From: Apoderus coryli
Taxonomy: Eukaryota; Arthropoda; Insecta; Coleoptera; Attelabidae
Assembly: GCA_911728435.2 (NCBI GenBank)
Contig: OU452198.1
Span: forward strand, 16,092,001-16,156,000
DNA length: 64,000 nt
Direction of reading: 5' to 3'
Below the pieces are notes generated by a model that was not told the DNA's origin, searched no databases, and saw only the letters and a program-made list of their open reading frames with translations. Both the position numbers and the translations under genes were made by a program. Of this stretch, positions 3,443-50,195 are shown in pieces (position 1 is the first letter of the stretch; the number at the start of each line of letters is the position of its first letter).

Positions 3443-5186
3443 AGCTCTCCATATCATATGTAATACTTATATGGAGACTATTAGTTTCATGAAAAAAAAA
3501 TTTTTTTTTAATTTCACCGGAAATACTTGGCAAGGAGCTGATTAGATTTTGGGAAACATTGAGCGTAGGCAAGGGGTTTAAAAGACGGTTCAAAAATTAA
3601 AAAAATTCATAGTTCTTAAACTTATCCGAAATACTGCATAATTTTTTACACATTTTATTGAATATAAAATATTAGACCACATTGGCGTTCGAAAATAGTG
3701 TAAAATGGAGTAAAAATATTTAAAAAAAAAACGTACTTTCTAAACATGGCAGAAATATTAACTAATTATTTATAGCTTTAATAGAATATAAGCTACAAAG
3801 TGTGTCATAAATAACTTACTTTCATAGGCGTTCGTAGATAGTGGAAAAGGGATCAAAACAGAAAAAATATATATTTCCTAAACATATTCGAAATATAGAA
3901 TAATTTTTTATAGTTGTGATAGAATATAACCTAAAAAATGTTACATAAAAGAATTGGTTCACACAGGCGTACGAAAATAGTCTAAACAAAGGGTCAAAAA
4001 CGAAAAAAAAATGTTTCCCAAATATACCAGAAAAACTGGCTAATTATATATAGCTTTGATATCAGATAAGCTAAAAAATGCAGCATAAAATTTTTATTTA
4101 CATAGGCGTTCGTAAATAGCAGAAAAAGGGGTAAAAAAATAAAATGTAAAAATTTTTATATGTAACTAGTTGAATTGGTGTTAAAAATACACGACAAAAA
4201 TTAATGTACCATAGGCGTCCTTGAAAATTCTATAAAAGGGTCAGAAAAAATTTGTATCCGTGATAACTCAAAAACCACTTTTTAACGGATTTTAACCCCA
4301 TTTGGTACGAAAACACTACAGGATATTTATAGGTAGTGATTAACATTGAGCGTAGGCAAGGGGTTTAAAAGAGGGTTCAAAAATTAAAAAAATCATAGTT
4401 CTTAAACTTATCCGAAATATTGAATAATTTTTTGTGCGTTTAATTAAACATAACCTTAAATATTTAACCTAAACAATTAGACCACATTGACATTCGAAAA
4501 AAGTGTAAAATGGGGTAAAAAGGTTAGAAAAAAAGAATTTCTTAAACATAGCAGAAATATTGACTAGTTATTTATAGCTTTGATAGAATATAACCTAAAA
4601 AATGTGTTATAAATAACTTGTTTTCATAGGCGTTCGTAAATAGTGTAAAAGAGGCAAAATAAAAACATATATACTTCCTAAACTTATTCAGAATACGGAA
4701 CAATTTTTCGTAGTTGTGATAGAATATAACCTAATAAATGTTACATAAATGAACTGGTTCACACAGGCGTTCGAAAAAGGGTCAAAAACGAAAAAAAAAA
4801 TGTTTTTCCAAATATAACAGAAAAATTGGCTAATTATATATAACTTTGATATAAGATAACCTACAACATGCAGCATAACAATTTTGTTTACATAGGGGTT
4901 CGTAAATAGTAGAAAAGGGGGCAAAATAAATTTTATAATAAAACTAAAAAAAAATCAATAATTTTGCGTACAAGAACTTGGCCTAGAGGATCTGAAATAT
5001 AAAATATGTACGTATAAATAGTGCCTCCAAAGAGAAGAAAAATGAACAAAACTCGATACTTAAAAAAATAGCTGATGTCTAGAACAAAACAAAAATTTAT
5101 TAAATTTAGATAAATGACAAATAGGTCATAAAATTATTACTTTTACACTTAAATCTGGAGAGCTATTCGTGCCTCGAGGGCAACAG
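3443..5186 (-). repeat. Tandem-repeat-bearing element, copy 1
   Basis: First of three copies of one repeat family (others 20792-23244 and 58779-60815). One end reads AGCTCTCCATATCATAT; the other ends in CTCGAGGGCAACAG near 5186 and contains AGAGCT, so the termini share a short inverted AGCTCTCCATAT. The body is made of diverged units of about 110-145 bp, each marked by GGCGTTCGTAAATAG or a variant. The conserved block TTGAGCGTAGGCAAGGGG occurs near 3560 and 4345. No protein is encoded. The layout (short terminal repeats, a microsatellite near one end in copies 2 and 3, central tandem repeats) resembles non-autonomous Helitron/Helentron-derived (HINE/DINE-like) elements, but that is inference. 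Confidence 0.75.
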
Positions 5187-8559: not shown

Positions 8560-9070
8560 TTATACCTAATACAAAAAGTGACCACCTCTAGCTCGGTTAC
8601 ATGAATCCAATCTTCTCCTCATTAAATGGCGAACTCTCTCTCAAAAATACCAGGGTCGTTTCTAATAGAATTACACCCAGTAATGATGCGATTCCTTGAG
8701 TCCTCCACAGGAGTAGCGTAAACTAAGGACTTCAGTTAGCCCCACAAGAAAAACTCCAGTGGGTTTAAATCTGGGAATCGCCAGGCCATAAGTGAGGTCT
8801 AACTCGGCCAACCCAACGATTTCCTTATGTTTCTGTTAAAAACTCACGAGCAACCCAACTAAAATGCGCTGGTGCATAAACCACATTGCATTTATTATTG
8901 CCAATGGTACGTTTTCCATAAATGCAGGAAGCGTGTATTCCACAAAGTCGCCATATATCTCTCCGCTAAGTCTTTATGGTAGAAATACGGGTCCAATTAA
9001 GCAGTCACCCATAATTCCAATCCAAATGTTCAACGAGAACTGATGTCTTGTAGCTTCATATGCAAGGATC
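8560..9070 (-). pseudogene. DD41D (rosa-like) transposase fragment
   Basis: Read on the minus strand, pieces give NVWIGIMGDCLIGP, then MWFMHQ and, in another frame, GNRWVGR. The tail matches the copy at 13190-13490 at nucleotide level (shared blocks include TCTAGCTCGG and ACATGAATCCAATCTTCTCC). It corresponds to the catalytic half of the transposase at 62576-63184. Many stops and frameshifts; no terminal repeats found nearby. Confidence 0.7.
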
Positions 9071-10055: not shown

Positions 10056-10156
10056 CAATGGAAAAACACGTCGTCTCCACCAATTTATTACAAAAACAAA
10101 AACTTGATTTTAATTGTAGCGACATGTTTCGGAGTTTCAACTCCATCATCAGCCTA
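10056..10156 (-). repeat. Hammerhead-like 3' module, copy A
   Basis: On the minus strand, 10152 to 10121 holds CTGATGA, one extra T, a 6-bp stem GGAGTT/AACTCC, then GAAAC and ATGTC. About 60 nt further come GTGGAGACGACGTG and TTTTTCC. The same order (core, spacer, GTGGAGTAGACGTGTTTTATT) recurs at 31145-31237, 44117-44230 and 53117-53200. The core resembles a hammerhead ribozyme of the minimal type reported for Penelope-like retroelements, but has an unpaired extra base before helix II. Confidence 0.6.
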
Positions 10157-10779
10157 AAAGGCAACAATATAAAATCATTATGGTTGTTAAATCAATAGCA
10201 ACAACAATTAAGGAAGGCTTTGTAGATGCAAATATTAATTACATACCTACGTTATCAAAAATAGCACATTGTTGTGAAGGCAGAGATCAAAACTAAATAA
10301 ATAAAAATAAAATGCCCGAAAATGTCGAATTCGAAAAAACGTTACATGTACAGAGCGGCAAAAAGATGCGGCAATATTTAAGGGGGTGATTTCTCAGGTC
10401 ATTTTATCACCAAAAGTTCCCATAAACATACGTCCGGAAATGCATTGTTTCCAAAATACAAAGTGTTAAAGTTTTTTTTTTTTTATTAAGTCAATTATCT
10501 CCTTACCGATTTGGCAATGTGGTTGGTGTAAATAGGGAGCTTATATGGCCCTAACTATATAAAATGGAGTTGAACCAAACAAATATTTCTTGAGACAAAT
10601 ATATGGTTTATTTGAAATACCCAACTAATATTTATTTATTACCTATACTTACTTGTTAACAAGGCCCGAAAATGTAAGGATATATTTGTTTGCTTGAAGT
10701 AGACAGAGTTTTAGAAGAAAGATTCCATGTACTTGACCCAAAGGTGCTGCTACTTGGAATAAATAAATATTTGTTTATT

Positions 10780-11408
10780 CTGAATAAACATTTTTTTTAT
10801 ATTAAATATATGATTTGTTCTATCCAAACAAATACTTTGCTCCGGAAAATCTGATACTTTGCTTCCAATAAATACTTTGTTGGTTACAAATAAATATTTA
10901 TTTTTTTCTAGAAATTAATTTACAAATATTTTTGTCAATAAAACTATAGGAACTGTTTGGATGAATTGTTCAAAAAACACCTACGCACGTAGTAATTTGG
11001 AAATTGTTTTATTTTGAACACCCTGTAGATCTGATTTAAGATTTTTGTATTGAGTTTTATAAATAATGAACCTATTACCCAAACAAATTTGGCTACAACT
11101 AAATAATGTGCTCTTTAAAAATAATAATAATCTTAAATCAGATCTACCGGGTGTTCAAAATGAAACAATCCCCAAAAATATTACGTTTGTAGGTGTTTTT
11201 TGAACAATTGATCCAAACAGTTTCTGGCTTTATTAATAAAAATATTTGCAAATTAATTTCTAGAAAAAGAATGTTTGAAGAAATAAATATTTCTTTGTAA
11301 CAAACAACGTATTTATTGGAAGCAAACTATCAAATTTTGCCCGATCATATTTATTTGGATAGAACAAATCATATATTTAAAACAAAAAAATGTTTATTTA
11401 TATAGGTA
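10780..11408. repeat. Large hairpin (foldback) repeat
   Basis: Inverted arms, about 10780-11045 and 11128-11408, flank a loop of some 80 bp. Mirrored blocks include AATATATGATTTGTTCTATC, TTCTAGAAATTAATTT, GTTCAAAAAACACCTAC and GTAGATCTGATTTAAGAT. The inner ends carry CACCCTGTAG and CTACCGGGTG, suggesting two opposed DD41D-type ends. No coding capacity. Confidence 0.75.
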
Positions 11409-11904
11409 TACCTGATACGCCTAGTTGATTTCGCGTTTGACATAAACGCCCGTGAATTTGTTTCAAACAAATATTTGTTTGAACTGAATAAATATTTCAT
11501 TGGGTGATTTTCTTGTTGGTCCCTAAATATAAACAAGCTGCCATCTTTGTATTAAATACTGTTAAATAAAATCTCAGTTTCAAGATCATTTACACGTTAT
11601 CCACGTGTATCTACTACCCTTATTTTATCAATTCACTACGATAATATAAAAAAAAGTATCTTATTATAATATTAGGTTTAGGTATCTATACATATGCTTA
11701 CATGAAATAAAAAATCATGCATTAGTACTCAAGCAATTTAAAAATTTTTTGTCACCGTTTTAATTATAATTAACTTATAACATTTAGGCACTTACATTCG
11801 AAAAGGTGTCATATAAGTGCTCTAGGTTCCACACCACTATAATAACGATTCAACGAACATTTGTTTTATTTCAATTGGTTTGTGATTCTTGCATTATATG
11901 CATA

Positions 11905-11934
11905 ACACAAACTATAGTTGGTTCGTTTGTGTTT
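11905..11934. repeat. 9-bp-stem hairpin
   Basis: AACACAAAC at the left and GTTTGTGTT at the right form a perfect 9-bp stem around a 12-nt loop. It lies directly upstream of the hammerhead-bearing foldback and may mark its border. Confidence 0.6.
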
Positions 11935-11960
11935 ATCACATTGAATTATGAAAATTAACG

Positions 11961-12009
11961 CTGTCTTGCGGTGTTCCGCAACTGAAGAGACGAATCGAAG
12001 TCGAAACAG
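11961..12009 (+). ncRNA. Type III hammerhead ribozyme, left arm
   Basis: Complete hammerhead in 49 nt. Helix III: CTGT 11961-11964 with ACAG 12006-12009. Cleavage-site C at 11965. Helix I: TTGCGG 11966-11971 and CCGCAA 11976-11981, loop TGTT. Core CTGAAGA 11982-11988. Helix II: GAC 11989-11991 and GTC 12000-12002, loop GAATCGAA. Core GAA 12003-12005, with A12006 pairing T11964 as A15.1-U16.1. All invariant positions fit the established hammerhead consensus (CUGANGA, GAA, UH). Predicted self-cleavage lies between 11965 and 11966. That it is transcribed and active is inference. Confidence 0.88.
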
Positions 12010-12298
12010 TAGAATTGAGTCTTCTTCAAACAGAAAGTGCAAAACTTTGACTGACTGGATATTTCTAGTTAGTGTATTTGAAAACGCATTGGACTATGTC
12101 CAAAACATTTTTCTGTTGCTGTTCATCTTGTGAACAGCCAAGCACATTGTGCAATAACGACGCTTGTTTTCGCGAATATTCAACCCGCTACTTCCTTACG
12201 TAGGCCATACGAAGGAACATCACCTCGTTTTGTTTTCAGGAGTTGACACACCCGCTACTTCCCATATATTTACATATATCGACACGCCTTTTACACCA

Positions 12299-12351
12299 TG
12301 TTATATGGCTCTCCTAGCCATACTGATGAGAACTGTCCGAGTTCGAAAACA
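12299..12351 (+). ncRNA. Type III hammerhead ribozyme, spacer
   Basis: Second, different complete hammerhead in 53 nt. Helix III: TGTT 12299-12302 with AACA 12348-12351. Cleavage-site A at 12303 (UUA, an allowed NUH triplet). Helix I: TATGGCT 12304-12310 and AGCCATA 12316-12322, loop CTCCT. Core CTGATGA 12323-12329. Helix II: GAACT 12330-12334 and AGTTC 12340-12344, loop GTCCG. Core GAA 12345-12347. Helices are longer than in the arm copies and the sequences differ throughout, so the shared fold is not due to recent duplication. Predicted cleavage between 12303 and 12304. Confidence 0.86.
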
Positions 12352-12479
12352 GGTAGAATACCCACCCCAGCAACAGAAAAATGTTTTGGACATAGTCCAA
12401 TGCGTTTTCAAATACACTAACTAGAAATATCCAGTCAGTCAAAGTTTTGCACTTTCTGTTTGGAGAAGACTCATTTCTA

Positions 12480-12528
12480 CTGTTTCGACTTCGATTCGTC
12501 TCTTCAGTTGCGGAACACCGCAAGACAG
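12480..12528 (-). ncRNA. Type III hammerhead ribozyme, right arm
   Basis: Exact reverse-complement copy of the motif at 11961-12009. On the minus strand helix III is 12528-12525 with 12483-12480, the cleavage C is at 12524, and helix I is 12523-12518 with 12513-12508. CTGAAGA is at 12507-12501, helix II at 12500-12498 with 12489-12487, and GAA at 12486-12484. No base of the 49 differs from the left copy, whereas flanking arm sequence shows substitutions. Confidence 0.88.
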
Positions 12529-13189
12529 CGTTAATTTTCATAATTGGTTTTATTTATTATATAATAATATATTATATGTAGGTATTAGTCATAACTAACA
12601 CAATAAATTCCACCTTCTACATTGGACTAATACTAAACTAAGACGCGTGCGCTATGGAGTTGAATCCCTAACAGCCATGCGCGTCGGCTCATTTTATTAT
12701 TATTTATTTGATTCAAATAACGGTGGACTTGTTTCAAATAACCAGGAATTAACTTTAATGTGTTAATAAAATTAAATAAATAAAGAAATATTTAAAAAAA
12801 ATCAAATAACTATTCATTCCGGACAAACACTGTTTATTTGAGTCAAATAAATTTTGTTTGAGTTAAACAAATAAAAGCTAAATAATTATTTATTAGGGTT
12901 CATTTTTAGAATTTTTTTCAGTGAGATCAAAGTTATTAAGTCCAGTGACGTTAGGGGGGGCAAATAATAAAAATTATTGACAAAAAAAAATGTACGCCAC
13001 TCACTTTAATTTAATTTCGGTATTGTCGTGAGATAGAGCAATTTTTTTATCTCTTCTATTTTTTTCATATAAAATTAAAACATTTTTCATCATACCAAGA
13101 ATATTAGCGAATAATTCAACTAAAAATAACATTAACATTTCGAAGCAAGAAAAAAATAAATAAATAAAATGAACATATATAGGTACCTA

Positions 13190-13490
13190 ATACAAAAAAT
13201 GAATGAAAAAATGACAAAAACTGTTGAAAGTTACGACCTCTAGCTCGGATACATGAATCCAATCTTCTCCTCAGAGACTGGTGAACTCTCTCAAAAATAC
13301 CAGGGTTGGTTCTAATCGAATTACACCCAGCAATAATATGATTCCTTAGGTTATCCACATGTGCCACAGGAGTAGCGTAAACTAAGGATTTCATGTGGCC
13401 CCACATGAAAAAATCCAGTGAATTTAAATCCGGGGATCGTGCAGGCCATAATAGAGGTCCACCTCGGCCAATCCAGCGATTTCCGGACAC
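13190..13490 (-). pseudogene. DD41D transposase C-terminal fragment
   Basis: Open on the minus strand for about 100 codons: GNRWIGRGGPLLWPARSPDL, then NSLDFFMWGHMKSLVYATPV, then FERVHQSLRRRLDSCIRARG. LDFF carries the third catalytic Asp of this transposase type (compare 62576-63184). The N-terminal DNA-binding part and the first two catalytic residues are missing. It belongs to the element at 10351-13569. Confidence 0.8.
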
Positions 13491-13857
13491 GCCTATGGGA
13501 ACTTTTTTTTATACAATGCCCTCAGAAATCACCCCCTTAAATATTGCCGCGTCTTTTTGAAACACCCTGTATATGTATGAATATAAACAGGTAAGAAATC
13601 GACAGAATAAAAATTATTATTTATTATTTTATTTAATGACAGACTAAATCAAGTTGTAACTCCTTAAGGTCTAACAGAGCTTCGAATAAATGATATTACA
13701 TTCCACTGCATCCTATGGATTACTTTTTTAACTTTATTTTGTCAACTTGTGTTTCTTTCAGAAATAAGAGTCGAATATATTCACTAACGATATTCTAAAC
13801 ATCGCCTACTCCAACATAATGGTTTTTGAAATTGAAAATTATTTTCTTTTTTTCTAG

Positions 13858-14046
13858 GCGAAATCAGAAGAGCATTTAGAGCAGGAAAAAGAATGGATCG
13901 ATTCAGAACGAGTATGGCTAATGCACAGAGGTGGGTTCGCGGCTGCAAGAAAATTAAACGATTTGAATTTGGAACCGGGTAAAATCCAGATACAACTTGA
14001 AGAAACTGGCGATATACTGAATGTTGACGAAGATGATATTGAGAAG
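13858..14046 (+). CDS. Myo18: Myo18 exon 2: start of the motor (SH3-like region)
   Basis: Residues 289-351. The acceptor TTTCTAG ends at 13857 and the donor GTATAC begins at 14047, phase 0 both sides. The protein reads ERVWLMHRGGFAAARKL, then KIQIQLEETGDILNVDEDDI. This corresponds to the pre-motor SH3-like segment of class XVIII myosins (W-x-x-H-x-G-F, then VDEDEV). Acidic and well conserved in character; no disruption. Confidence 0.92.
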
Positions 14047-15853: not shown

Positions 15854-18547
15854 TCACGTAAGAAAACGACCTTTCGAATAATGCCGTATTATGTGAGGGT
15901 GCGCTATCACATTCTCATTTCGGGTATTAACATGATGTGCCAGCGCACGAAACTCAATCTTGCTATACAGATACCCCGGCGTCCTACTCAAAATAATTTT
16001 GTTAAACATCACTAGAGAGTGCATTCTCCGTCGCTGCTCCATATTCAACCACTTTAACTCTATTCTCTTTGCCGTTATTCCACGTTCCCTTCTTCTAATG
16101 CCAGATATTAGGCGAACACAAGAGTTTTGCATCAGCTGAATCCTACGCACCTCCGTACTAACAAGGCAAGGTCCATACACCACATCACCATAATTAAAAT
16201 GAGAAAGAACTAAGGTATCACACAGCAACCTCCTCAAAGACGAATCTAACAGTTTCCTCTGACCATATATTAGTTTTAAATTGATAAAGGCTCTTTTGAC
16301 ACATGCACTGACATGTTCCCTAAATCGTAATTCACTGTCTATATGTAAGCCCAAATTTTTAGCCACCTTAGTACATTGCAAATTAAAACCGTTAATGTTA
16401 AGTCTAAATATATCCTTATACCTATTTCGAGCCTTACATGGTCCCAAAAGCAATAGCTGCGACTTGCTGGGATTCAGGTGCAGACAATGCTGCTCCGAGT
16501 GACGCACAAGTTTTTCCAGATCAGAGTTGATACATTCTATACTCTGATAAACAGTCCGTGGATCAAACGAAAAGTATATTTGCGTGTCATCCGCATAAAG
16601 ATGTGCTGAACAATGTTCAAGCACCCTGGTAAGTTGCGAGGTATATATACTGAATAAGATAGGACCCAGTATAGAACCCTGCGGGACTCCACTACGCAGC
16701 GACCGGCGAGCAGACACACTATTCCCCAAACGAACAATCTGAGATCTGTCACTCAGATACACAGACAATAGAGACACGGCCGACTCCCCAAAACCCAGAT
16801 ACCGTAGTATTTCGATCAACAGCCCGTGGTCTAGTCGGTCAAATGCTTTGGAATAATCCAACATGATCAGAGCTGTCAATTTTCCATCATCTGCTTCATG
16901 AAGCACATCATCCAACACCTTCAACAATGCAGTTGAGCAACTGTGCCCCCGTCGGAACCCCGACTGAGTATCAGGCAAAAGCCTGTGCTGAAGGAGGTAG
17001 TCCTTGATCTGTTCATCCAGAATACGTTCCAAAACCTTAGAAACCGCAGGCAACACACTAATAGGCCGCAGGTCGCTCAACGACGCTGGCGAATGGCTCT
17101 TAGGAACGGGTATTACGTTGGCTAATTTCCAACAAGGATAGTTGTGAGTTTCAATAGAATAATTTACTATGTGCAACAGAACAGGAATGATATGAGGGCA
17201 GCTACGAGTCAACATATCAACACTGATCCCATCACTGCCCACCGCATTAGATTTAATCCTCGCCAAAGCATTCAGTACATCCTCATAATCAACCATCTTG
17301 AACTCAAAGGCTACATTATCTCCAACACGGTTAGAGCGATAATAGTCGATTATGTCAGGATCGGGATCAACAACTGGAATATTCACAAAGTAGTCATTCA
17401 CAGCATCAGCATCCTGCAGGTTAACAGGAATTTCAGCCCTATCTTTGCTATATATATTCATCTCGTGCAAAAGTTTCCAATTGTCTCTCCCTCCATTTTG
17501 CTGAATCTGATTGCGAAGATAATTTTTTTTCGCCCTGTCAATAGTTGTAGTTAGCAGATTTCTAATCTTCTTATAAGCAGTCCAATTCTCATACGTCCTG
17601 TTCATCTTGTATCTGCTCAACAGCCGCTGCTTTTGTCTCTTCAGCTCTTTAATATTCCTAGATAACCAAGGGGCCTTCTTTTTGGTAATCCTGACAGTTC
17701 TTACGGGAGCATGACGGTCAAATACACTCAATAGGTACTGATTAAATAAATCAACTTTTTCATTAATATCATTGAGATAAAATACACCATAAAGCGGCAG
17801 GCTCACCAAGTCAGCATAGAAGGAATTTTGATCAAAAGACCTAAAATCACGAAAGGTGTAATAAAATGGCTCAGGCTTGAAAACCTCTCCCTTAACGCAA
17901 CATACAACAGGAAAGTGGTCAGAGAGACGAGCATCATGATCCACCCTGACAGATGATAAACATGAATTAACAGAACACACAAATAAATCCAGCAACGAGG
18001 CCTGACCAAGGCTATGCCTTGTGTGCTCATTCACAACCTGTTTCAAGCTGTACATATCCAGCACACTAAGAAATCGTTGAACATAATTGCAGTCTAGATT
18101 TAAGACATTAATATTAAAATCACCAATACAAACAACATCTGAATCAACAAGAGTCTTACTAACATTTTCTTCAAATTCAAACAAAAATTCAGAGAAATCA
18201 GCAAAACCAGGGGGTCTATACAGCAATCCCAGAGTTGTATGCACACGATTTATTTTAAATCTTACTCAAATCTGTTCCGCCCTCAGCCCATCCAGATCCC
18301 GGATTTCATCAAAGCTAATAGAATTCCGTATATATATGATAACCCCCTCGCCATGCCCATGGCCGCGGTCACGTCGAACAAAGCGATAGCCCTCAATTAT
18401 CAAAAAATCATTATGTGCGTCCTCATTCAACCAGGTCTCTGTTACGCCAATGATATCAAAACCGTTGTTCAAAACATACGACTTAAATTGATTAAACTTT
18501 GGCAACAATGATCGTACATTTAACTGAGCAATACTTAAGGTAGCCAT
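15854..18547 (-). pseudogene. LINE ORF2: endonuclease-reverse transcriptase, one stop
   Basis: Near-complete ORF2 of about 900 codons. It starts MATLSIAQLNVRSLLPK at 18547, the apurinic-type endonuclease start, with VTETWL, then CIGDFNIN and ARLSDHFPVV as catalytic blocks. The reverse transcriptase follows: NVIPVPKSHSPASLSDLRPI, LPDTQSGFRRGHSCSTALLK, MLDYSKAFDRLDH, SGVPQGSILGPILFSIYTSQ, and the active-site YADDTQ. One TGA at 18266-18268 interrupts the endonuclease domain, probably a TGG to TGA change. Near 15885 a frameshift cuts off the last 40 residues, which continue in another frame (SYVISKLYNGLPNDVKT). Otherwise open, so a recent arrival. It copies LINE RNA into nicked chromosomal DNA. 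Confidence 0.92.
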
Positions 18548-20391: not shown

Positions 20392-20745
20392 GTTGTGTCT
20401 CTATTCAAAGGCTGCAAATCGGAAGATATGCCGCCACACATTTATTCCATGGCTCAATCGGCATATCACAATATGCTAACAACACGAAGAGACCAATCTC
20501 TGCTCTTCATTGGACGTTCCGGTTCTGGTAAAACAACAAATTTCCGACACTGTGTTCAGTATTTGCTGACTGCAGCTGGTTCAATCAACAACGTGCTGAC
20601 TTTGGAGAAGTTAACAGCGCTTTGGACTGTACTGGAGAGTTTTGGTAATTGCAAAACTGTGATGAATTCGAATGCTACCAGATTTACACAGATTTTTAGT
20701 GTCGATTTTGATCAGAGTGGTGTGATTGCGTCGGCCAGTGTTCAG
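20392..20745 (+). CDS. Myo18: Myo18 exon 4: P-loop and switch I
   Basis: Residues 412-529. Acceptor TTTTTAG ends 20391; donor GTAGAA begins 20746. It starts VVSLFKGCKSEDMPPHIYSM and contains the nucleotide-binding P-loop as GRSGSGKT (residues 452-459) where active myosins have GESGAGKT. Switch I is NSNATRFTQI where active myosins have NxNSSRFGK. It continues SVDFDQSGVIASASVQ. These substitutions are typical of class XVIII and agree with the weak or absent ATPase of that class. Phase 0. Confidence 0.96.
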
Positions 20746-20791
20746 GTAGAATATCTATTAAATATTTCTAGAATAAACTCATTAAAACTAG

Positions 20792-23060
20792 CTGTTGCCC
20801 TCGAGGCACGAATAGCTCTCCATATTTAAGTGTAAAAGTCATAATTTTATGACCTTTTTGTCATTTATCTAAATTTTTGTTTTGTTTTAGACATCAGCTA
20901 TTTTTTTTTTTTTTGTATCGGGTTTTGTGCCTTTTTCTTCTCTTTGGAGGCACTATTTATACGCAGATATTTTATATTTCAGATCTAGGCCAAATTCTTG
21001 TACGCAAAATAATTGATTTTTTTTTAGTTTTATTATAAAATTTATTTTGCCCCCTTTTCTACTATTTACGAACGCCTATGTAAACAAAATTGTTATGCTG
21101 CATGTTGTAGGTTATCCGTTGGTTTTTGAGTTATCACGGATACAATTTTTTCCTGTTAAGTGGTTTTTGAGTTATCACGGATACAAATTCTGACCTTTCT
21201 ATAGAATTTTCACGGACGCCTATGGAACATTAATTTTTGTCGTGTATTTTTAACACCAATTCAACTAGTTAAATATAAAATTTTTTACATTTTAATTTTT
21301 TTTCATTTTACCCCTTTTTTTACTATTTACGAACGCCTATGTAAATAAAAATTTTATGCTGCATTTTTTAGGTTATCTTATATGAAAGCTATATATAATT
21401 AGCCAATTTTTCTGGTAAATTTGGGAAACATTTTTTTTTCGTTTTTGACTCTTTTTTTAAGACTATTTTCGAACGCCTGTGTGAACTAATTCTTTTATGT
21501 AACATTTTTTAGGTTATATTCTATCACACCTATAAAAAATTATTCAATATTTCGGATAAGTTTAAGAACTATAACTTTTTTAAATTTTTGAACCCTCTTT
21601 TAAACCCCTTGCCTACGCTCAATGTTAATCACCACCTATAAATAGCCTGTAGTATTTTCGTACCAAATGTGGTTAAAATCCGTTAAGTGGTTTTTGAGTT
21701 ATCACGGATACAAATTTTTTCTGACCCTTTTATAGAATTTTCACGGACGCCTATGGAACATTAATTTTTGTCGTGTATTTTTAACACCAACTCAACTAGT
21801 TAAATATAAAAATTTTTACATTTTAATTTTTTTTTATTTTACTCCTTTTTCTACTATTTACGAACGCCTATGTAAATAAAAATTTTATGCTGCATTTTTT
21901 AGGTTATCTTATATCAAAGCTATATATAATTAGCCAATTTTTCTGGTATATTTGGGAAACATTTTTTTTTCGTTTTTGACCCTTTTTTAACACTATTTTC
22001 GAACGCCTGTGTGAACTAATTCTTTTATGTAACATTTTTTAGGTTATATTCTATCACAACTATAAAAAATTATTCAATATTTCGGATAAGTTTAAGAACT
22101 ATGATTTTTTAAATTTTTGAAACCTCTTTTAAACCCGTTGCCTACGCTCAATCTTAATGACCACCTATAATTATCCTGTAGTATTTTCGTACCAAATGTG
22201 GTTAAAATCCGTTAAGTGGTTTTTGAGTTATCACGGATACAAATTTTTTCTGACCCTTTTATAGAATTTTTACGGACGCCTATGGTACATTAATTTTTGT
22301 CGTGTATTTTTAACACCAATTCATCTAGTTAAATATAAAATTTTTTACATTTTAATTTTTTTTTATTTTACCCCTTTTTCTACTATTTACGAACGCCTAT
22401 GTGAATAAAAATTTTATGCTGCATTTTTTAGGTTATCTTATATCAAAGCTATATATAATTAGCCAATTTTTCTGGTATATTTGGGAAACGTTTTTTTTTT
22501 CGTTTTTGACCCTTTTTTTAAACTATTTTCGAACGCCTGTATGAACCAATTCTTTTATGGAATATTTTTTAGCTTATATTGTATCACAACTATGAAAAAT
22601 TATTCCATATTTCGAATAAGTTTAGGAAATATATATTTTTTATGTTTTGACCCCTTTTCCACTATTTACGAACGCCTATGAAAGTAAGTTATTCATGACA
22701 CATTTTATAGGTTATATTCTATCAAAACTATCAATAACTAGTTAATATTTCTGCTATTTTTAAGAAATACGTTTTTTTTTAATCTTTTTTACCCCATTTT
22801 ACACTATTTTCGAACGCCAATGTGGTCTAATATTTTATGTTCAATATTTTAGGTTATATTCAATTAAATGCGTAAAAAATTATGCAGTATTTCGGATAAG
22901 TTTAAGAACTATGAATTTTTTTAATTTTTGAACCCTCTTTTAAACCCTTTGCCTACGCTCAATGTTTCCCAAAATCTAATCAGCTCCTTGCCATGTCCAA
23001 TAGTATTTTTGTACCAAATTTGGTTAAAATCTGTTAAGCGGTTTTTGCGTTTTCGTGGAT

Positions 23061-23390: not shown

Positions 23391-24350
23391 TTAATAATTA
23401 ACTTTGGCTACGTTCGTAACAAAAATACATGGAGATATGTGGTAGAATTTATTACTACCGTAGCAAAAGTTAACATACCATTACTGTATTAGTAAATGGT
23501 CCATTGTAACCTTTGCTCTGTGTAGTACAACACTAAAGTACAGGGTTGGGTTGGGTTTAATACGATTGACCATTTAATCATACAGTTATTGTACGTAACT
23601 TTGGCTACCGTCGCGTCGTAAAAAAATACTTGGAGATATGTAGGAGAATTTGTTACGACCCTAGCAAAAGGTAACATACCATTACTGTATTAGTAAATGG
23701 TCCATTGTAACCTTTGCTCTGTGTAGTAACACCACTAAAGTACATGATTGGGTTGGGTTTAATACGATTGACCATTTAATCATATAGTTATTGTACGTTA
23801 ACTTTGGCTACCGTCGCGTCGTAACAAAAATGCTTGGAGATATGTAGGAGAATTTGTTACGACCGTAGCAAAAGTTAACATACCATTACTGTATGAGTAA
23901 ATGGTCCATTGTAACCTTTGCTCTGTGTAGTAACACCACTAAAGTACATGATTGGGTTGGGTTTAATACGATTGACCATTTAATCATATAGTTATTGTAC
24001 GTTAACTTTGGCTACCGTCGCGTCGTAACAAAAATGCTTGGAGATATGTAGGAGAATTTGTTACGACGGTAGCAAAAGTTAACATACCATTACTGTATGA
24101 GTAAATGGTCCATTGTAACCTTTGCTCTGTGTAGTAACACCACTAAAGTACATGATTGGGTTGGGTTTAATACGATTGACCATTTAATCATACAGTTATT
24201 GTACGTTAACTTTGGCTACCATCGCGTGGTAATAAAAATACTTGGAGATATGTAGTAGAATTTGTTACCACCGTAGCAAAAGTTAACGTACCATTACTGT
24301 ATTAGTAAATGGTCTATTGTAACCTTTGCTCTGTGTAGTAACACCACTAA
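23391..24350. repeat. 203-bp satellite, about 4.7 units
   Basis: Units start with TAACTTTGGCTAC near 23398, 23596, 23800, 24003 and 24207. They are highly alike. Each unit holds two dyads: GTTAACTTTGGCTACCGTCG mirrored about 60 bp later by CGACCGTAGCAAAAGTTAAC, and ATTACTGTATTAGTAAATGG mirrored by CCATTTAATCATACAGTTAT. The array ends abruptly at ACCACTAAAG before TGGTGGTGG. Confidence 0.92.
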
Positions 24351-36117: not shown

Positions 36118-38695
36118 CCGGGTATTCCATTAAGGGTGAGCAGGTAGCATATCTCAGGAAATAATAGTCGTAGGATAATGGGGATAAAATTCTTTTAGGG
36201 AAATTGACCATGGGAAATCGCTGGAAATAGTTTTTTTAGTTCCTAACTATACCGCTAGGGGGCGTAATAGATACAGTAATGCGAAAAATACATTTTTATT
36301 GAAAATTTCGCAATATAAGTTAGAAAAACAATACTGCCACAGTAATGCTACTCAGATTTGGCATCTTTTTGGTTTAACACTTTTAATTGTGCGGCTTGAA
36401 TTAAAGGCAGCAGGGATGGCCGAAATTTTACCTATTATAATGTCTATAACTATGGTTTGGCTTAGCTGAATTTATCAATCTAATTTTTGTTTAAGAACTG
36501 AAGCCTTGCTGATGAAGAAAAAAAATATTTGAAATCATAATTGTTTTTTGGGGCTCCGCTAGATGGCGCTATTTGCAACGCCCAAGGTTTTTTTTATTTT
36601 TATTTACAATCTTAAATGGAATGATACAAATATTTTATCAAAAATTAAAAGTAAATTGAGTTGCAACAAAAAAGTCCAAAACCGCACATCAAAATCTTTA
36701 TTCGTTTCAGAGTTATGGCCAAAAGAATGTTGTTCACCAAAATTCGTTGAAAACTCATGTATCTTTAATTTTCCGTCATCAAGAATGCCATGGGAAATAA
36801 AGAAATAGGTTTAAACTTTATTAAACTGATAGTTTAACAAATAAAAATAATGAAAAAGCCATTAAAATTACCAAAATGCAGAGCTTTCATAAAATTTGTT
36901 AAAAAAGGTAGATCCTAGATACCCATGAAACAAAATTGGCAAGTTTCCATGGAGACAAATAAACATTGACAAATTGTCAAACAGTTTATTTCTAAATATT
37001 AAAAAAGCGTTACAGTTACAATCTTCGTGAAACTATTTGGGATATTTACTAGAAATTGTTTTACAAAATGGCTTATAGTAATGCAGAGGCATACGATATG
37101 CTTGCGGTATATTTCCAGTGCTTTGAAAATGCAGCTGTTGCGAAACGCGAATATGCTACTAAATACCCTGACCGAAGACACCATAGCAGAAAGTGTTCCG
37201 TCGGTTAGCAGTCCGTTTACGAGAAACGGCAAGTGTAAGAGTTGATCTAGGCCCGTTCAGAAGACGTCCAGTTAGCAGTGAAGATAATATTATAAACGTT
37301 CTTGCGTATGTGAAAGCGAATCCTCATGTAAGGTCAGTGACATTTCTTTAGACTTAGGAATACATCGCACTTCAGCGTTCCGGATTTTAAAATCTTTTAA
37401 ACTGCATCTTTACAGAAAACCCGCAATTTCTCTCACAGATTTTATGGACTGGTGAAGCAAGATTGTCTAGTTGTGGTAGTGTTAATCTACACAATACGCA
37501 TTATTGGTCACAAACAAATCCTCATTGGATGCGGGAAGTTGACCATCAAAGTAGAGGGAATGTAAACATGTGGTGTGGAATCGTAGACGGCAGAATTATT
37601 GGACCATTTATAATTGATGGCCATCTGAATGGAGAATCGTATTTCAATTTTTTAAATCGCTGGATTGGAAGGGGTAGCGTATTTTTGTGGCCACCTATAT
37701 CCCCGGACTTGATAGTGTTAGATTTTTACTTGTGGGAAAGGATAAAAAACATGGTTTACCAAACACCACCAACCACTCGAGAGAACATGATTGAGCGAAT
37801 TCAAATTGCAGTGGCGTCGCTTCCACGAGCTGAAATCGAGGCGGCGGTTGCTAGTACATTAAAAAGAGCCAATAGCTGCATTTTGCAACATGGGGATCAT
37901 TTTGAACATTTATGAAAGTTCTGTTGGTAGTTATAATGTTGTTGTTGTTGTTTTGTTATTATTAGTGTTATTGTTAATTTTTGTTATTTTCATTGGTTAT
38001 CCATTGTTATTTCTTTATTTCCCATGGCATTCTTGATCACGGAAAATTAAAGATACATGATTTTTTAACGAATTTTGGTGAACAACATTCTTTTGGCCAT
38101 AACTCTGAAACGAATAAAGATTTTGATGTGCTGTTTTGGGCTTTTTTGTTGCAAATTCAATTTAATTTTCATTTTTGATAAAATATTTGTATCATTCCAT
38201 TTAAGTTTTTAAAGAAAAATCAAAAAAACCTTAGGCGTTGCAAATAGCGCCATCTAGCGGAGCCACAAAAACAATTATGATTTTAAATATTTTTTTCTTC
38301 ATCAGCAAGGCTTCCGTTCTTAAACAAAAATTAGATTGATAAATTCGGTTAAGCCAAACCCTAGTTATAGACATTATAATAGGTAAAATTTCGTCCTTCC
38401 CTGCTCCCTTTAATTCAAGCCGCACAATAAAAAGTGATACACCAAAAAGATGCCGAATCTCCGTAGCATTTCTGTGGTAGTATTGTTTTTTTAACTTATA
38501 TTGCGAAATTTTCAATAAAAATGCATTTTTCGCATTACTATATCTATTACGTCCCCTAGCGGTATAGTTAGGACCGAAAAAACTATTTCCAGCGATTTTC
38601 CATGGTCGATTTCTCTAAAAGAATTTTTCCCTCATTGTCCTACGACTATTATTTCCTGAGATATGCTACTTGTCCACCCTTAATTGAATACCCGG
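36118..38695 (+). mobile_element. DD41D-type transposon with about 690-bp inverted repeats
   Basis: TA-flanked (36116-36117, 38696-38697), 2578 bp. Ends: CCGGGTATTCCATTAAGGGT and, inverted, CCGGGTATTCAATTAAGGGT. The inverted repeats run 36118-36806 and 38008-38695, more than half the element. Mirrored blocks include CCGCTAGATGGCGCTATTTG and CATGTATCTTTAATTTTCC. Between them is a broken transposase (37068-37915). Confidence 0.9.
37068..37915 (+). pseudogene. DD41D-type transposase with DUF4817-like N-terminus, broken
   Basis: Starts MAYSNAEAYDMLAVYFQCFE, the insect transposon helix-turn-helix domain annotated as DUF4817, then REYATKYPDRR. It is broken by a stop near 37207. Later pieces: YVKANPHV, FRILKSFKLH, then the catalytic part from 37463 with HWMREVDHQSRGNVNMWCGI, IIGPFIIDGHLNGESYFNFL, a deletion removing the HDG second-Asp motif, then NRWIGRGSVFLWPPISPDL and VLDFYLWERIKNMVYQTPP, ending GDHFEHL. 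Inactive. Confidence 0.85.
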
Positions 38696-44165: not shown

Positions 44166-44596
44166 TATATATATATGTTGAAATCTTCTAAATTAGCCAG
44201 ACATGTTTCGGATCATATGTCCATCATCAGTGGCTTAAAGAACCTAGTTACAATATGAATGTGACAATTGTGTTAATGTAGTAGTCGTAGGATTGAAACA
44301 TTTATACACATCACTTTGTTGAAATTAAATTATTTGTTAATCAGATAAATAAAATATGAAATTTGATATAAAATGAAGTTTAAATTAAATTAGATCATAC
44401 TTGGATATTGGATTTGTTTTTCTTTTTACGCCTACTATTGGTTTTCATAATTTTATTATATTTGGAGATCAGGTGTCGTTCATAACGTACAAAATGATAT
44501 CATTTCACGTTATGAACGACACCTGATCTCTAGGTTCTTTAAGCCACTGATGATGGACATATGATCCGAAACATGTCTGACTAATTTAGAAGATTT

Positions 44597-44632
<36 letters not shown>
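44166..44632. repeat. Inverted repeat carrying hammerhead-like cores
   Basis: 44166-44247 and 44530-44632 are inverted copies, each starting at an AT microsatellite (GTTGAAATCTTCTAAATTAG) and ending in AAGAACCTAG. Each holds CTGATGA, an extra T, stem GGA/TCC, then GAAACATGTC: minus strand 44230-44200 and plus strand 44547-44577. Helix I-like pairing AGCCA/TGACT is partial. Same module family as 10056-10156, 31145-31237 and 53117-53200. Confidence 0.7.
44465..44530. repeat. 66-bp palindrome
   Basis: GAGATCAGGTGTCGTTCATA (44465-44484) plus ACGT pairs with its exact complement ending GACACCTGATCTC at 44530. The centre AAATGATATCATTT is itself palindromic, so all 66 bp fold with at most one mismatched pair. 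Confidence 0.93.
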
Positions 44633-44634
<2 letters not shown>

Positions 44635-44702
44635 CTTGAGATGTTTTTGGGGAATCTGCCTGTATACTATTATGAAATAAAACTCTTGTTTACATGCCAA
44701 GC

Positions 44703-44736
44703 TTTCGGAAATTTATTGATTTGTTTCCTTCTTCAG
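44703..44736 (-). ncRNA. Hammerhead-like core in Penelope-like element, left copy
   Basis: Minus strand: CTGAAGA, one extra A, stem GGAAA, 12-nt loop, TTTCC, then GAAAGC. It lies in the 3' region of the element, beyond the endonuclease. Helices I and III are not evident. The mirror copy is at 50058-50091. Confidence 0.45.
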
Positions 44737-45592
44737 GGCTGTGGATAAGTAAAAAACACAAATCGCAATTGATGTACAATACGAAAACGAAAAAAAAAGG
44801 AAAACTGTACAATAATCTCTTTAAAACTTCCTTACCTTGCAAGGTGAGTTAACAATTTTGAAGATAGTCTAAGAAGTAGAACATTATTATTGTTGAGAAA
44901 TTTGACGGTTACATTCACAAACAAACATATAGGTACCAAACAGACATACCAAAGTTATTATTGTTTATACATTTTTTGGTCTTGTAAATAAAACAATATT
45001 TCACTGAACGTGATCACAAAAATTGAAACATCCAACCTACAGTATCTATGTATTTTATTGCTTATCATTTCATTTTTATTAAATTCATTTACACCTAGTT
45101 TTTGTAAATTTTTAAGTAGTCTAACTTATGCACAACCGTCCCAAAGATTTTAGAAAGAGGCTGTTAGTGTGTATTAGTTTTATGAAAAGTATTTTATAAA
45201 ATAAAAAACTCGCAATGGGTAGTGCTGTTCATGATCGTTTTTTAGGCTTTTTTACCATGTATGCAAAAACATAATTATTTTATTTTATTATTTATATGCT
45301 ATTATGGTGGTTGTTGGGAATGGAACCTGTCACTAGTTTCACTACCAACCTCCACGGTGAACCTACAAAGCCTTTTATCTACTAGTTATTTTTGACGATC
45401 TGGTTGTTTGATTCTAGGGAGTTACCCAGAGATTGAACCAAGGGTTGCCACATTCCCAGATCCAACCCCACAAGGAGACCCACCAAAACCACATTCTTTC
45501 ATATTATACCACACTCCCCCATTGCCATTCAAAGGTGGAAGTTGAAATTAATTAATATTGCTAAAGTTGAAAAGATTTGCTATTATAACCAA

Positions 45593-46324
45593 TTAAATGA
45601 TGCTTGATTGCTCGCTTAAGAGATTGGAGTATATGATGTTAATATCTTCAATGTCTTTTCTTTTATTCATGGCCTTTTTATTTGTGTTGGTTTCTACCAT
45701 TTCTAGAAAGAGTCTTTTGCGTAAGTTCCTCTCCATAAAAACTATTTCCGAATCTTCGTAGTTTGGTGTGTGACCTGTGTCCAAATAATGTTCAGACAAC
45801 GCACACGACCGTTTATGGAGTCTGCAGTCACTTCTGTGTGCGGTTATTCTGTCTTTTAGGACTCTAGAAGTTTGTCCTATGTATACTTGTTTACAAGAAG
45901 AGCAGGGGATTGAATATACTACCTCCGATGATTTTGAAGGTAGATCTCTATCTTTAGTTTTAGAGAATAGGTTGCCAATTGTTTTTACACTTTTTTGAGC
46001 TATTCGTATTAATGGTTCATTTTTCAAAATTTTTATAATTTTTTGTGTAACACCATCAATTGCCGGCAAAGAATAATAAGTGAAGTTGTTAATTGTAGGA
46101 GGGTCATTAATATCTCTGTTGATTTGATTAGTGATATGCGGGCGATCTGAGGAGGTGTTAAAGATTAATTTGTTGAGAAGGTGTTTTGGATATGAATTTT
46201 CTAACAAGATATTGAAAAGTTTTCTTTTATTAATTTGAATGAGGCTAGAGTGACAGATTCTTTCGATTCTGGTTTTTAGACCCTGTACTAAATTGATTTT
46301 GATCTTTTCAGAGTGATGGGACAT
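45593..46324 (-). CDS. Penelope-like GIY-YIG endonuclease, left copy
   Basis: 243 codons. The N-terminal part (HSSLIQINKRKLFNILLENS) continues the thumb/linker of the upstream reverse transcriptase. The C-terminal half is the GIY-YIG nuclease: VVYSIPCSSCKQVYIGQTSR with paired Cys, then DRITAHRSDC, EHYLDTGHTPNYEDSEIVFM and KRLFLEMVETNTNKKAMNKR. This nuclease nicks target DNA for target-primed reverse transcription. It overlaps the reverse transcriptase frame by 37 nt in another frame; a one-base loss in TTTAACTAT appears to have split one ORF. Identical in sequence to 48470-49201. Confidence 0.93.
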   Translation of the reverse strand: MSHHSEKIKINLVQGLKTRIERICHSSLIQINKRKLFNILLENSYPKHLLNKLIFNTSSDRPHITNQINRDINDPPTINNFTYYSLPAIDGVTQKIIKILKNEPLIRIAQKSVKTIGNLFSKTKDRDLPSKSSEVVYSIPCSSCKQVYIGQTSRVLKDRITAHRSDCRLHKRSCALSEHYLDTGHTPNYEDSEIVFMERNLRKRLFLEMVETNTNKKAMNKRKDIEDINIIYSNLLSEQSSII

Positions 46325-47631
46325 ATAGTTAAATACCTACCAGAATTCGTAGGTTTTAAATACCAGTCCAAAATTATTTTGTTTTCACTAGTTCTTATTA
46401 GTTTTGTGTCTAGAAATGGCACTGAGCAATTGTGTTCTTCTTCTATTGTAAATTTAATGTGATCATTATAGTTATTGAATATTGTAAGGATTTCGTTGCC
46501 TTTATCGAATGGAACTGAGCAAATGATGTCGTCAACGTATTTTTTTAAGAAGGGTAATTGAAAGGAAAGCCTGGGGATACAGTCCTCGAGTAAATCGTCC
46601 ATCACTATTTGGGCAACGATTGGTGAAATGGTTGCTCCCATCGGAGTTCCTAATACCTGTTTATAATATTTGTTATTAAATTTGAAATATGTATTGTTGA
46701 AGATAAAACCTATTATTTCGAGAAATTCTTTTTTTGGTATTTCAGTGTTGTTCGCAATAACAGACCATCTTTTATTTATACTGTTTAAAACTAGTTCTAG
46801 GGGTATGTTGCTATATAGAGACACTACATCTAAACTGATCAGTACGTAGTGTTGAGGTAACTGTCTGTCATTTGTTATATTCGCGAATTCAAAAGAGTCG
46901 TTAATGTAGAAGTCGTTGTTTTTTGAGTATGTTGCTGTGAGAATATCAGTAATTAATGTGGATAACTTACTCGTAGGTGCGTTTATGGAGGAGATTATTG
47001 GACGCAAGGAGAGGGTAGGTTTGTGAATTTTGGGGAGGCCATAGAATTTAGGGGAGGTTTGGTTGTAAATAGTTAAGGACTTCGCTATGTTGTCTTCTAT
47101 ATACTTTTTGTTTTTTAATAGTGCTACAAATTTATTCGCTTTTTGCTGTATGGTGGACGTGGGATCATCTCTAAGAATTTTGTAATAATTGGTATCAGAT
47201 AAAATGTCATTACATTTTTCGAGATATAAATTTCTCGTTAAAATAACAGTGACATTGCCTTTATCTGCTTGTGTTATAATCAAATCTTTGTGTGCATTAA
47301 TGAACTTTTTTGTTTTTAGGAAGAGTTCGCGAAAAAATGTGGATGTTATAGGATTTTTGTAATAATTAGTGAGCACATTTGTTATTTTTGCTCTGTACTG
47401 ATTTTTTCTTTGTTCACTTACACCGAAAATAATATTTTCTATGTCCGCCAATAGTTTTTTAACACAAACGTCTTTCTGACTTGGGCATATGGAGAATTTG
47501 AAACCCAACGCTAAAAAACTCTTTATGTCACTCGGTATGTTAATGTCGGTTAAATTTTTTAACCAATTTTCATTGGTACGTAGCAACTTTTGTGATATTT
47601 CCTCCTTTAAACGGCTGAGCTTTCGAATGTT
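46288..47631 (-). CDS. Penelope-like reverse transcriptase, left (longer) copy
   Basis: Begins inside the frame at NIRKLSRLKEEISQKLL (47630); the open frame extends 14 codons past the junction into the inverted copy, which is chimeric and not real. Motifs: SDIKSFLALGFKFS, FINAHKDLIITQADKGNVTV, FYGLPKIHKPTLSLRPIISS, LISLDVVSLYSNIP, QVLGTPMGATISPIVAQIV and the active site KYVDDI, then VPFLDTKL. These are the Penelope-type reverse transcriptase blocks, related to telomerase. The 5' end of the element is missing. The frame ends after GRYL because of the frameshift described for 45593-46324. Confidence 0.92.
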   Translation of the reverse strand, partial: NIRKLSRLKEEISQKLLRTNENWLKNLTDINIPSDIKSFLALGFKFSICPSQKDVCVKKLLADIENIIFGVSEQRKNQYRAKITNVLTNYYKNPITSTFFRELFLKTKKFINAHKDLIITQADKGNVTVILTRNLYLEKCNDILSDTNYYKILRDDPTSTIQQKANKFVALLKNKKYIEDNIAKSLTIYNQTSPKFYGLPKIHKPTLSLRPIISSINAPTSKLSTLITDILTATYSKNNDFYINDSFEFANITNDRQLPQHYVLISLDVVSLYSNIPLELVLNSINKRWSVIANNTEIPKKEFLEIIGFIFNNTYFKFNNKYYKQVLGTPMGATISPIVAQIVMDDLLEDCIPRLSFQLPFLKKYVDDIICSVPFDKGNEILTIFNNYNDHIKFTIEEEHNCSVPFLDTKLIRTSENKIILDWYLKPTNSGRYLTICPITLKRSKSI

Positions 47632-47633
47632 AC

Positions 47634-48506
47634 ACGTCCACCATACAGCAAAAAGCGAATAAATTTGTAGCACTATTAAAAAACAAAAAGTATATAGAAG
47701 ACAACATAGCGAAGTCCTTAACTATTTACAACCAAACCTCCCCTAAATTCTATGGCCTCCCCAAAATTCACAAACCTACCCTCTCCTTGCGTCCAATAAT
47801 CTCCTCCATAAACGCACCTACGAGTAAGTTATCCACATTAATTACTGATATTCTCACAGCAACATACTCAAAAAACAACGACTTCTACATTAACGACTCT
47901 TTTGAATTCGCGAATATAACAAATGACAGACAGTTACCTCAACACTACGTACTGATCAGTTTAGATGTAGTGTCTCTATATAGCAACATACCCCTAGAAC
48001 TAGTTTTAAACAGTATAAATAAAAGATGGTCTGTTATTGCGAACAACACTGAAATACCAAAAAAAGAATTTCTCGAAATAATAGGTTTTATCTTCAACAA
48101 TACATATTTCAAATTTAATAACAAATATTATAAACAGGTATTAGGAACTCCGATGGGAGCAACCATTTCACCAATCGTTGCCCAAATAGTGATGGACGAT
48201 TTACTCGAGGACTGTATCCCCAGGCTTTCCTTTCAATTACCCTTCTTAAAAAAATACGTTGACGACATCATTTGCTCAGTTCCATTCGATAAAGGCAACG
48301 AAATCCTTACAATATTCAATAACTATAATGATCACATTAAATTTACAATAGAAGAAGAACACAATTGCTCAGTGCCATTTCTAGACACAAAACTAATAAG
48401 AACTAGTGAAAACAAAATAATTTTGGACTGGTATTTAAAACCTACGAATTCTGGTAGGTATTTAACTATATGTCCCATCACTCTGAAAAGATCAAAATCA
48501 ATTTAG
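47634..48506 (+). CDS. Penelope-like reverse transcriptase, right copy, truncated
   Basis: Open from the junction (TIQQKANKFVALLKNKKYIE) to the same frameshift end as the left copy. It lacks the first 155 or so codons present in the left copy, but retains LPKIHKP, SLDVVSLYSN, GTPMGATISP and YVDDI. The protein sequence where both exist is identical. Confidence 0.92.
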   Translation, partial: TSTIQQKANKFVALLKNKKYIEDNIAKSLTIYNQTSPKFYGLPKIHKPTLSLRPIISSINAPTSKLSTLITDILTATYSKNNDFYINDSFEFANITNDRQLPQHYVLISLDVVSLYSNIPLELVLNSINKRWSVIANNTEIPKKEFLEIIGFIFNNTYFKFNNKYYKQVLGTPMGATISPIVAQIVMDDLLEDCIPRLSFQLPFLKKYVDDIICSVPFDKGNEILTIFNNYNDHIKFTIEEEHNCSVPFLDTKLIRTSENKIILDWYLKPTNSGRYLTICPITLKRSKSI

Positions 48507-50057: not shown

Positions 50058-50091
50058 CTGAAGAAGGAAACAAATCAATAAATTTCCGAAA
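50058..50091 (+). ncRNA. Hammerhead-like core in Penelope-like element, right copy
   Basis: CTGAAGA 50058-50064, extra A, GGAAA 50066-50070, TTTCC 50083-50087, GAAA 50088-50091. Mirror image of 44703-44736. Followed by GAGTTTTATTTC, similar to the tail of the other modules. Confidence 0.45.
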
Positions 50092-50195
50092 GCTTGGCAT
50101 GTAAACAAGAGTTTTATTTCATAATAGTATACAGGCAGATTCCCCAAAAACATCTCAAGCAATATTTAATAAACTAGCCAAATAATTATTCAACA

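Follow-up and report, generated by a model that had tools for sequence, protein, structure and literature searches.

How does an insect chromosome come to hold, within 600 bp, two unrelated hammerhead motifs, and what sort of element could have brought them there? The question is raised by the stretch of Apoderus coryli DNA shown above, all 64,000 nucleotides of which we call the window. Three motifs, two of one sequence (A) and one of another (B), were found in it both by direct reading and by a descriptor scan:

11960-12010, + strand: hammerhead A, type III, predicted cleavage 11965/11966
12479-12529, - strand: hammerhead A, second copy, type III, predicted cleavage 12524/12523
12299-12351, + strand: hammerhead B, type III, predicted cleavage 12303/12304

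Both methods find in A and in B the CUGANGA and GAA segments, the A15.1-U16.1 pair, an H17, which is C in A and A in B, and mismatch-free helices I, II and III. In the descriptor scan helices I, II and III measure 6, 3 and 5 bp (one G-U included) in A and 7, 5 and 4 bp in B; helix III is open and helices I and II are closed by loops, which makes the layout type III. A sequence-only reading of this DNA had already recognized three complete type III hammerheads, with cleavage at 11965/11966 and 12303/12304, and our analysis arrives at the same motifs and the same sites. In other words, A and B are confirmed as complete type III hammerhead motifs, for which self-cleavage is predicted.

Could such motifs arise by accident? 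A relaxed descriptor (helices I, II and III of at least 4, 3 and 3 bp) found 4 matches on both strands of 40 Mb of sequence simulated with an order-2 Markov model built from the window, or 0.006 per 64 kb, and with helices of at least 6, 3 and 4 bp it found none in those 40 Mb; given this rarity, two different motifs within 600 bp are not a matter of chance. The hammerhead core pattern is matched 14 times in the window, A and B included, against a mean of 1.65 in shuffles. The covariance check that the sequence-only reading had pointed to gave no such comfort. No Rfam family reaches gathering score in the window, a permissive scan of the whole window returns zero hammerhead matches, and a permissive scan of 11900-12600 returns as its sole hammerhead matches two mirrored, partial type I hits (13.1 bits, E 9.6) lying over both A motifs. 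The Rfam hammerhead models likewise find nothing at E <= 10 in four related loci of the genome (L034, L038, L045 and L049). These missed thresholds count against A and B as textbook members of the family. Folding z-scores of the isolated motifs are modest (-1.0 to -1.6), and when short pieces are folded, the predicted minimum-energy structure is more stable than the hammerhead by 0.8 (A) and 3.0 (B) kcal/mol.

What, then, holds the three motifs together? Mapping to a unit of ~582 nt found elsewhere in the genome, for which locus L038 supplies the reference, resolves the surrounding DNA as follows (window positions are L001 positions plus 10443):

11863-11871: left target-site duplication (TSD), GTTTTATTT, an exact 9-nt repeat abutting both element ends, read directly
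11872-12546: the full insertion, 675 bp, a tail-to-tail pair of incomplete ~582-nt units (L038 mapping and TSD)
11872-12123, + strand: arm 1, with the 'long' end, monomer ~467 to 583 and on from 1 to 165 (mapping to the L038 unit)
12124-12135: 12-nt filler at the inner joint (joint comparison)
12136-12546, - strand: arm 2, inverted, with the 'short' end, monomer 404 to 1 and then ~14 nt (L038 mapping)
12547-12555: right TSD, GTTTTATTT, an exact 9-nt repeat

The element had earlier been placed at 11945..12545; its right end holds to within about a nucleotide, and its left end, by the mapping and the 9-bp GTTTTATTT repeat, reaches out to 11872. The stretches 11944-12121 and 12368-12545 (178 nt) are 99% complementary. 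Arm 1 holds A and arm 2 holds B and the second A, with B of opposite polarity to A within arm 2. There are three motifs rather than four because arm 1 stops short of B; the fuller foldbacks L045 and L046 read A(+), B(-), B(+), A(-).

The same reading had nested the element in a DD41D transposon, an idea that found no support in the stretches compared, although a transposon extending past them may exist. The interval 10500-14000 has 81 inverted pairs; in the longest 25 of them, no pair that spans the element exceeds 31 nt (71%), and the flanks (11500-11862 and 12556-13115) have no match around the other transposase copy at 8575-8824. Degenerate transposase copies do occur in the window, at 8575-8824, 13116-13490, 37463-37915 and 62576-63491; we take them to be mariner-like, and Pfam gives no match for 13116-13490 or 62576-63184. 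An exon for a myosin motor domain (Pfam Myosin_head) lies at 20395-20829(+), and the element may be intronic to, or upstream of, this myosin gene.

A single copy says little about what is being copied, and the genome says a good deal more. A search of the host assembly (428 Mb in 129 contigs) gave at least 112 matches, a lower bound with 40 of 372 candidates scored, and at least 37 related loci, all 37 of which were examined (L001, L025, L026, L029, L030 and L031-L062); the proposal of a mobile family in many copies is borne out. Some of these loci are segmental duplicates of one another. A left flank is common to L025, L026, L029 and L030 and a right flank to L025, L026, L030 and L051, and because of these shared flanks we think that the five probably go back to a single insertion that was duplicated, or nearly so, although each is counted in the 37 and L025, L029 and L051 are also among the 28 elements tested for TSDs. 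L046, with two copies in identical flanks, is counted once.

Adjoining A and B lie on opposite strands in 37/37 loci. On the L038 unit (583 nt, with the predicted A cleavage between monomer positions 9 and 10), runs head to tail cover 1.9 units in L038 itself, 2.0 in L043, 1.3 in L050, 1.16 in L041 and 1.17 in L053, the last known from mapping on that unit. Self-comparison gives a period of 582-583 in L038 (513 nt, 98%), L043 (593 nt, 96%), L050 (202 nt, 96%) and L041 (91 nt, 90%). L034 belongs to an older subfamily in which the A motifs lie 604 nt apart; its head-to-tail arrangement comes from motif order, its ungapped self-comparison being weak (66%), and the unit length is thus 582-604 nt. 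L040, L044, L048 and L049 offer 12-26 nt for self-comparison, too little to judge by, and L049, whose length had suggested a head-to-tail copy, was set aside on an unsupportive 12 nt at 58%. The head-to-tail copies and the opposite polarity of A and B point to a ~582-nt monomer, made from a template that would most simply be circular or multimeric. As the copies read, the repeat unit is this monomer, in which A and B occupy opposite strands, and not the foldback DNA element of the sequence-only reading; the foldback is only one of several outcomes of insertion.

Where do copies begin? There are two recurrent points, monomer ~467 (the 'long' end) and ~571 (the 'short' end), neither of which coincides with a predicted cleavage site. 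Every inverted copy with two resolved ends has one of each (17/17), for which independent and equal choice would give a probability of 0.5^17, or ~8e-6. The ends of these 17 were pooled from several mappings, one of which had spans that missed the right ends of L040 and L053; L037, among the 17, has a long end traceable just to monomer 509, and the count leaves out L034, with its three arms, and loci lacking two resolved inverted ends. A TSD of at least 10 nt flanks 15/28 elements, against 1.1% of swapped-flank controls. TSD lengths run from 8 to 16 nt in the 17/28 elements that have one, lengths that may include microhomology because the analyst set the ends and the match could slide by as much as 6 nt. 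In 11/28 elements (L029, L037, L038, L043, L044, L048, L049, L050, L052, L057 and L059) no TSD reached 7 nt. The inner joints are variable: in the 14 listed, the arms overlap by 1-11 nt or are separated by a filler of 1-12 nt, in one case of 285 nt. Three non-inverted copies with TSDs (L041, L051 and L025, the last two of which may be a single duplicated insertion) begin with the long end and break off at differing places, as from 5' truncation.

The 285-nt filler, in L039, is worth a closer look. It is antisense, and one reverse-strand frame is free of stops over 94 codons and encodes a peptide that resembles the part just before the reverse transcriptase (RT) domain of a LINE ORF in L042 (50% over 84 residues, E 8e-21) and the same part of a LINE ORF in L050 (35%, E 1e-9); RVT_1 is found in both ORFs. 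(The L042 ORF, L042:1360-3020(-), ends ~130 bp from that locus's element, outside its TSD.) Pfam reports no LINE family in the 94-aa piece, and the piece matches neither the window's own LINE ORF nor the best 120 of that ORF's 724 protein relatives. That ORF lies at 15854-18244(-). Of its 724 relatives 120 were listed, and all those with a named organism (8/8) come from beetles, namely Brassicogethes, Leptinotarsa, Photinus and Callosobruchus, pointing to a beetle as the probable host. The strand of the L039 piece is the one that a long-end cDNA would leave after a jump to a LINE mRNA, and the simplest account of this single chimeric joint is that a non-LTR (LINE) enzyme acts as the inserter.

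Might we instead be looking at a foldback (TIR) DNA transposon family that carries hammerheads by chance and is moved in trans by a transposase? The long, nearly perfect arms of the window copy and the numerous inverted copies in the host genome would suit it. The genomic copies would not: their ends are unlike in all 17 two-ended inverted copies, TSD length is not constant, inner joints differ from copy to copy, non-inverted and head-to-tail copies exist, and one joint contains a piece of a LINE. The identical inverted ends and constant TSD length of TIR transposons are both absent. We have dropped this explanation in view of the unequal ends, variable TSDs and head-to-tail units, and we find it barely credible.

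A derivative of a Penelope-like element (PLE) has to be weighed also, if only because the window offers one as a neighbor. An RT-bearing inverted dimer occupies 44626-50168, with arms of 2536 nt at 100%, 471 nt apart, whose ORFs end outward (both 3' ends outward); RVT_1 (Pfam) lies within it at 46288-47673. We take the dimer to be Penelope-like; a downstream ORF in it has a GIY-YIG-like motif. PLEs can insert as tandem or inverted copies. Nearby are minimal type I hammerhead-like motifs (GAAACATGTC) at 44206-44230(-), 44547-44571(+) and 53117-53144(+), and another lies at 10127-10152(-), where helix I is poor; their helix III has 2 bp, one additional base separates CUGAUGA from helix II, and they resemble PLE hammerheads. 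Dimer and motifs both speak for such a derivation, the motifs at 44206(-), 44547(+) and 53117(+) being the PLE-type ones. Against it, these motifs are minimal, of type I and marked by the extra base after CUGAUGA, in contrast to the type III layout and full helices of A and B; within the window, a BLAST search with the element has no match outside it at E 1e-4; and the L039 joint carries a piece of a LINE ORF. We judge a PLE origin very improbable.

The window has other repeats of its own. Between two inverted type I motifs, at 44462-44535, is a strong hairpin with sub-threshold matches to microRNA models. A ~204-bp tandem repeat at 23414-24340, with five copies of the reference piece, has sub-threshold matches to a MIR6217-like foldback. 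Composite repeat arrays with a spacing of ~530 bp and ~135-nt subunits lie at 3574-4950, 21036-22946 and 59009-60640, the middle one inverted relative to the other two.

If the unit is copied through RNA, have the ribozymes been kept? In seven diverged copies compared with L038, A is 86-98% and B 86-96% identical, against 64-70% at monomer 243-404, so that the claim of a fold kept beyond recent copying holds between subfamilies. Ribozyme positions are better kept than the rest in 7/7 of these copies (Fisher p 9.9e-4 to 9.6e-9, in tests that share the one reference, L038, and involve related copies and so are not independent). The stretch between the ribozymes, 59-176, is 64-89% identical to L038 in the seven; in L034, L035 and L060 it is about level with A (86-89% against 86-88%), and the contrast therefore leans mainly on monomer 243-404. 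Within the young subfamily (L043 and L050 against L038) ribozymes and rest diverge alike, which suggests that copies decay neutrally after insertion and that constraint acts on the source lineage. Neutral decay, which the sequence-only reading had named as a refuting outcome, is seen within the young subfamily; across subfamilies the ribozymes are better kept.

Compensatory change, the other thing to look for, gives a mixed picture. In 26 distinct rows of B, helix III exchanges C-G and U-A in 3 and helix II goes from G-C to A-U in one: two pairs and 4 cells, with a covariation score reached by 0/500 shuffles of rows that are related; a control with the structure slid by +2 also yields two double-sided pairs, in 2 cells rather than 4. 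In 31 distinct rows of A there is no double-sided pair change, and pairing and covariation are not above shuffles. The core is intact in 43/49 A and 31/41 B full-length rows. (The alignments took 49/58 A and 41/50 B BLAST matches; the 9 omitted from each were, as far as checked, under full length.)

The obvious economy would be to let A do all the work. In an ordinary retrozyme of a single polarity, genomic copies would be transcribed and the RNA circle reverse-transcribed, with A alone of importance and B a by-product. Animals and plants both have retrozymes (PMC7229834 and PMC4918200), and tandem copies and TSDs are compatible with one. Yet B is kept as well as A between subfamilies, its core is intact in most full-length rows, and it alone shows compensated pair changes; in plant retrozymes, by contrast, PMC4918200 reports the opposite-polarity RNA to be without self-cleavage. 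We consider this economy improbable.

The RNA itself is unusual in its folding. One genomic unit folded as a circle reaches -173 kcal/mol on the plus strand, against -149 +/- 6.8 in 60 shuffles (~3.5 sd), and -154 on the minus strand, against -123 +/- 6.5 in 60 shuffles (~4.8 sd); the predicted circular fold is branched. Minus-strand frames free of stops run to 118-150 codons in the five units read, beyond the 90th percentile (106) of 200 shuffles, and we entertained a coding role for them. The longest shows no codon-position bias between subfamilies (mismatches 17/20/17) and has 65 gap positions, on which grounds we dropped coding capacity and regard the unit as non-coding. A Pol III B box is absent from both strands of the L038 unit.

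Paired hammerheads and a stable fold are features of viroid-like RNAs, and one may ask whether an exogenous RNA infecting the insect, viroid-like or satellite, has been endogenized repeatedly, with nothing genome-borne about it. Subfamilies at 64-70% in monomer 243-404 may then be separate agents. Of three narrow motif patterns none was matched in a viral collection (a weak test), and one pattern run against a prokaryote genome collection gave nothing; these nulls say little, since neither is an animal collection. Dozens of copies, some spread by segmental duplication, fit a resident element too. We hold repeated endogenization to be unlikely, though it deserves a hearing.

We think it quite probable that the element is a ~582-nt non-coding, non-autonomous one that exists as circular or multimeric RNA, with one type III hammerhead for each polarity (A for plus, B for minus). 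Its copies are best read as those of a retrozyme-like or retroviroid-like element that has paired type III hammerheads and owes its insertion to a non-LTR reverse transcriptase. How might such an element work? A would cut multimeric plus RNA, and B multimeric minus RNA, into unit-length RNAs, which would be ligated into circles. At a chromosomal break, the enzyme of one of the host's non-LTR retrotransposons would copy minus RNA into cDNA (target-primed), the first cDNA being primed near monomer 467 and, in inverted copies, a second near monomer 571 on the opposite side. Each cDNA would extend a variable distance, sometimes for more than one circuit, and a tail-to-tail joining of two cDNAs from the same RNA would make a foldback whose ends are unlike, one long and the other short; the foldback copies, with their 17/17 pairs of unlike ends, suggest just such a joining. 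Transcripts of tandem copies would release unit RNA anew.

Does RNA also copy RNA? It may; a symmetric RNA-to-RNA rolling circle would require two conserved ribozymes of opposite polarity, as are present here. Only tentatively, and as something that we rather doubt, do we offer the fuller idea of an animal retroviroid: a genome-borne replicon with a symmetric RNA-to-RNA rolling circle (A cutting plus RNA, B minus) and a DNA archive made through a LINE RT. If true, it would connect viroid-like replicons with retrozymes in an animal. Given a chromosomal element with paired hammerheads, paired ribozymes in a metatranscriptomic circle would cease to argue against a genomic origin. The element also offers an animal system in which to ask whether viroid-like replicons and ribozyme retroelements interconvert, and from the pattern of two starts one can read how such a template is used by a reverse transcriptase.

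How does all this compare with systems already described? The parts of the open-access literature that our search covered describe no animal element with paired hammerheads. Two features of retroviroid-like sequences are present, hammerhead motifs in both polarities and DNA copies in a host genome, as is one of retrozymes, a non-coding, ribozyme-bearing unit repeated head to tail with a period of 582-583; the single ribozyme of retrozymes as so far described, the 4-bp TSD of the plant ones and the type I hammerhead of the animal ones are absent. The ~1.5-1.7 kb genome of deltavirus-like agents is not matched by a unit of 582-604 nt that lacks a coding signal. Carnation small viroid-like RNA (CarSV) has hammerheads in both polarities. 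Like CarSV, the present element is a small viroid-like unit with a DNA counterpart and hammerheads in both polarities, here as motifs in DNA; CarSV belongs to a plant, its DNA lying in a pararetrovirus or the plant genome, whereas the insect genome holds dozens of dispersed copies of ~582 nt, many with TSDs. CarSV is treated as a retroviroid-like element, a small viroid-like RNA with a DNA counterpart (Daros & Flores 1995, as described in PMC7461866).

Plant LTR retrozymes share the type III hammerhead, the lack of coding and a passage through circular RNA, in units of 600-1000 nt (PMC4918200, PMC6155905, PMC7229834), but they have LTRs (with PBS and PPT), TSDs of 4 bp and a lone ribozyme in a single polarity, where our element has longer TSDs and a ribozyme for each polarity. 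Metazoan non-LTR retrozymes come closer in being animal, in short tandem units, low GC, the lack of an LTR and TSDs of more than 4 bp (PMC7229834), although theirs are type I hammerheads, one to each (PMC11721086), in circular RNAs of ~170-400 nt (PMC7229834), and ours are paired and of type III. PLEs with their minimal hammerheads are also ribozyme-bearing retroelements, with candidates in this same window, but they have the minimal type I motif and encode a reverse transcriptase (PMC6155905, PMC7761336), where our element is type III and non-coding. Among RNA agents, hammerhead viroids, viroid-like satellite RNAs and zeta viruses likewise have hammerheads in both polarities of a small RNA circle (PMC11721086); here the copies are chromosomal DNA without a coding signal. 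Type III hammerheads are known in insects. Delta-like RNAs of termite and toad have them in both polarities of a circRNA, with a long helix I and extra hairpin, a pseudoknot, a length of ~1.5-1.7 kb and a delta antigen, unlike our compact motifs (PMC7936874); termite and dipteran genomes have isolated type III motifs (PMC7936874), while ours sit in a repeated unit. By analogy with these systems, the element appears to behave most like a retrozyme or a plant retroviroid-like element, a non-coding ribozyme RNA that has a DNA form.
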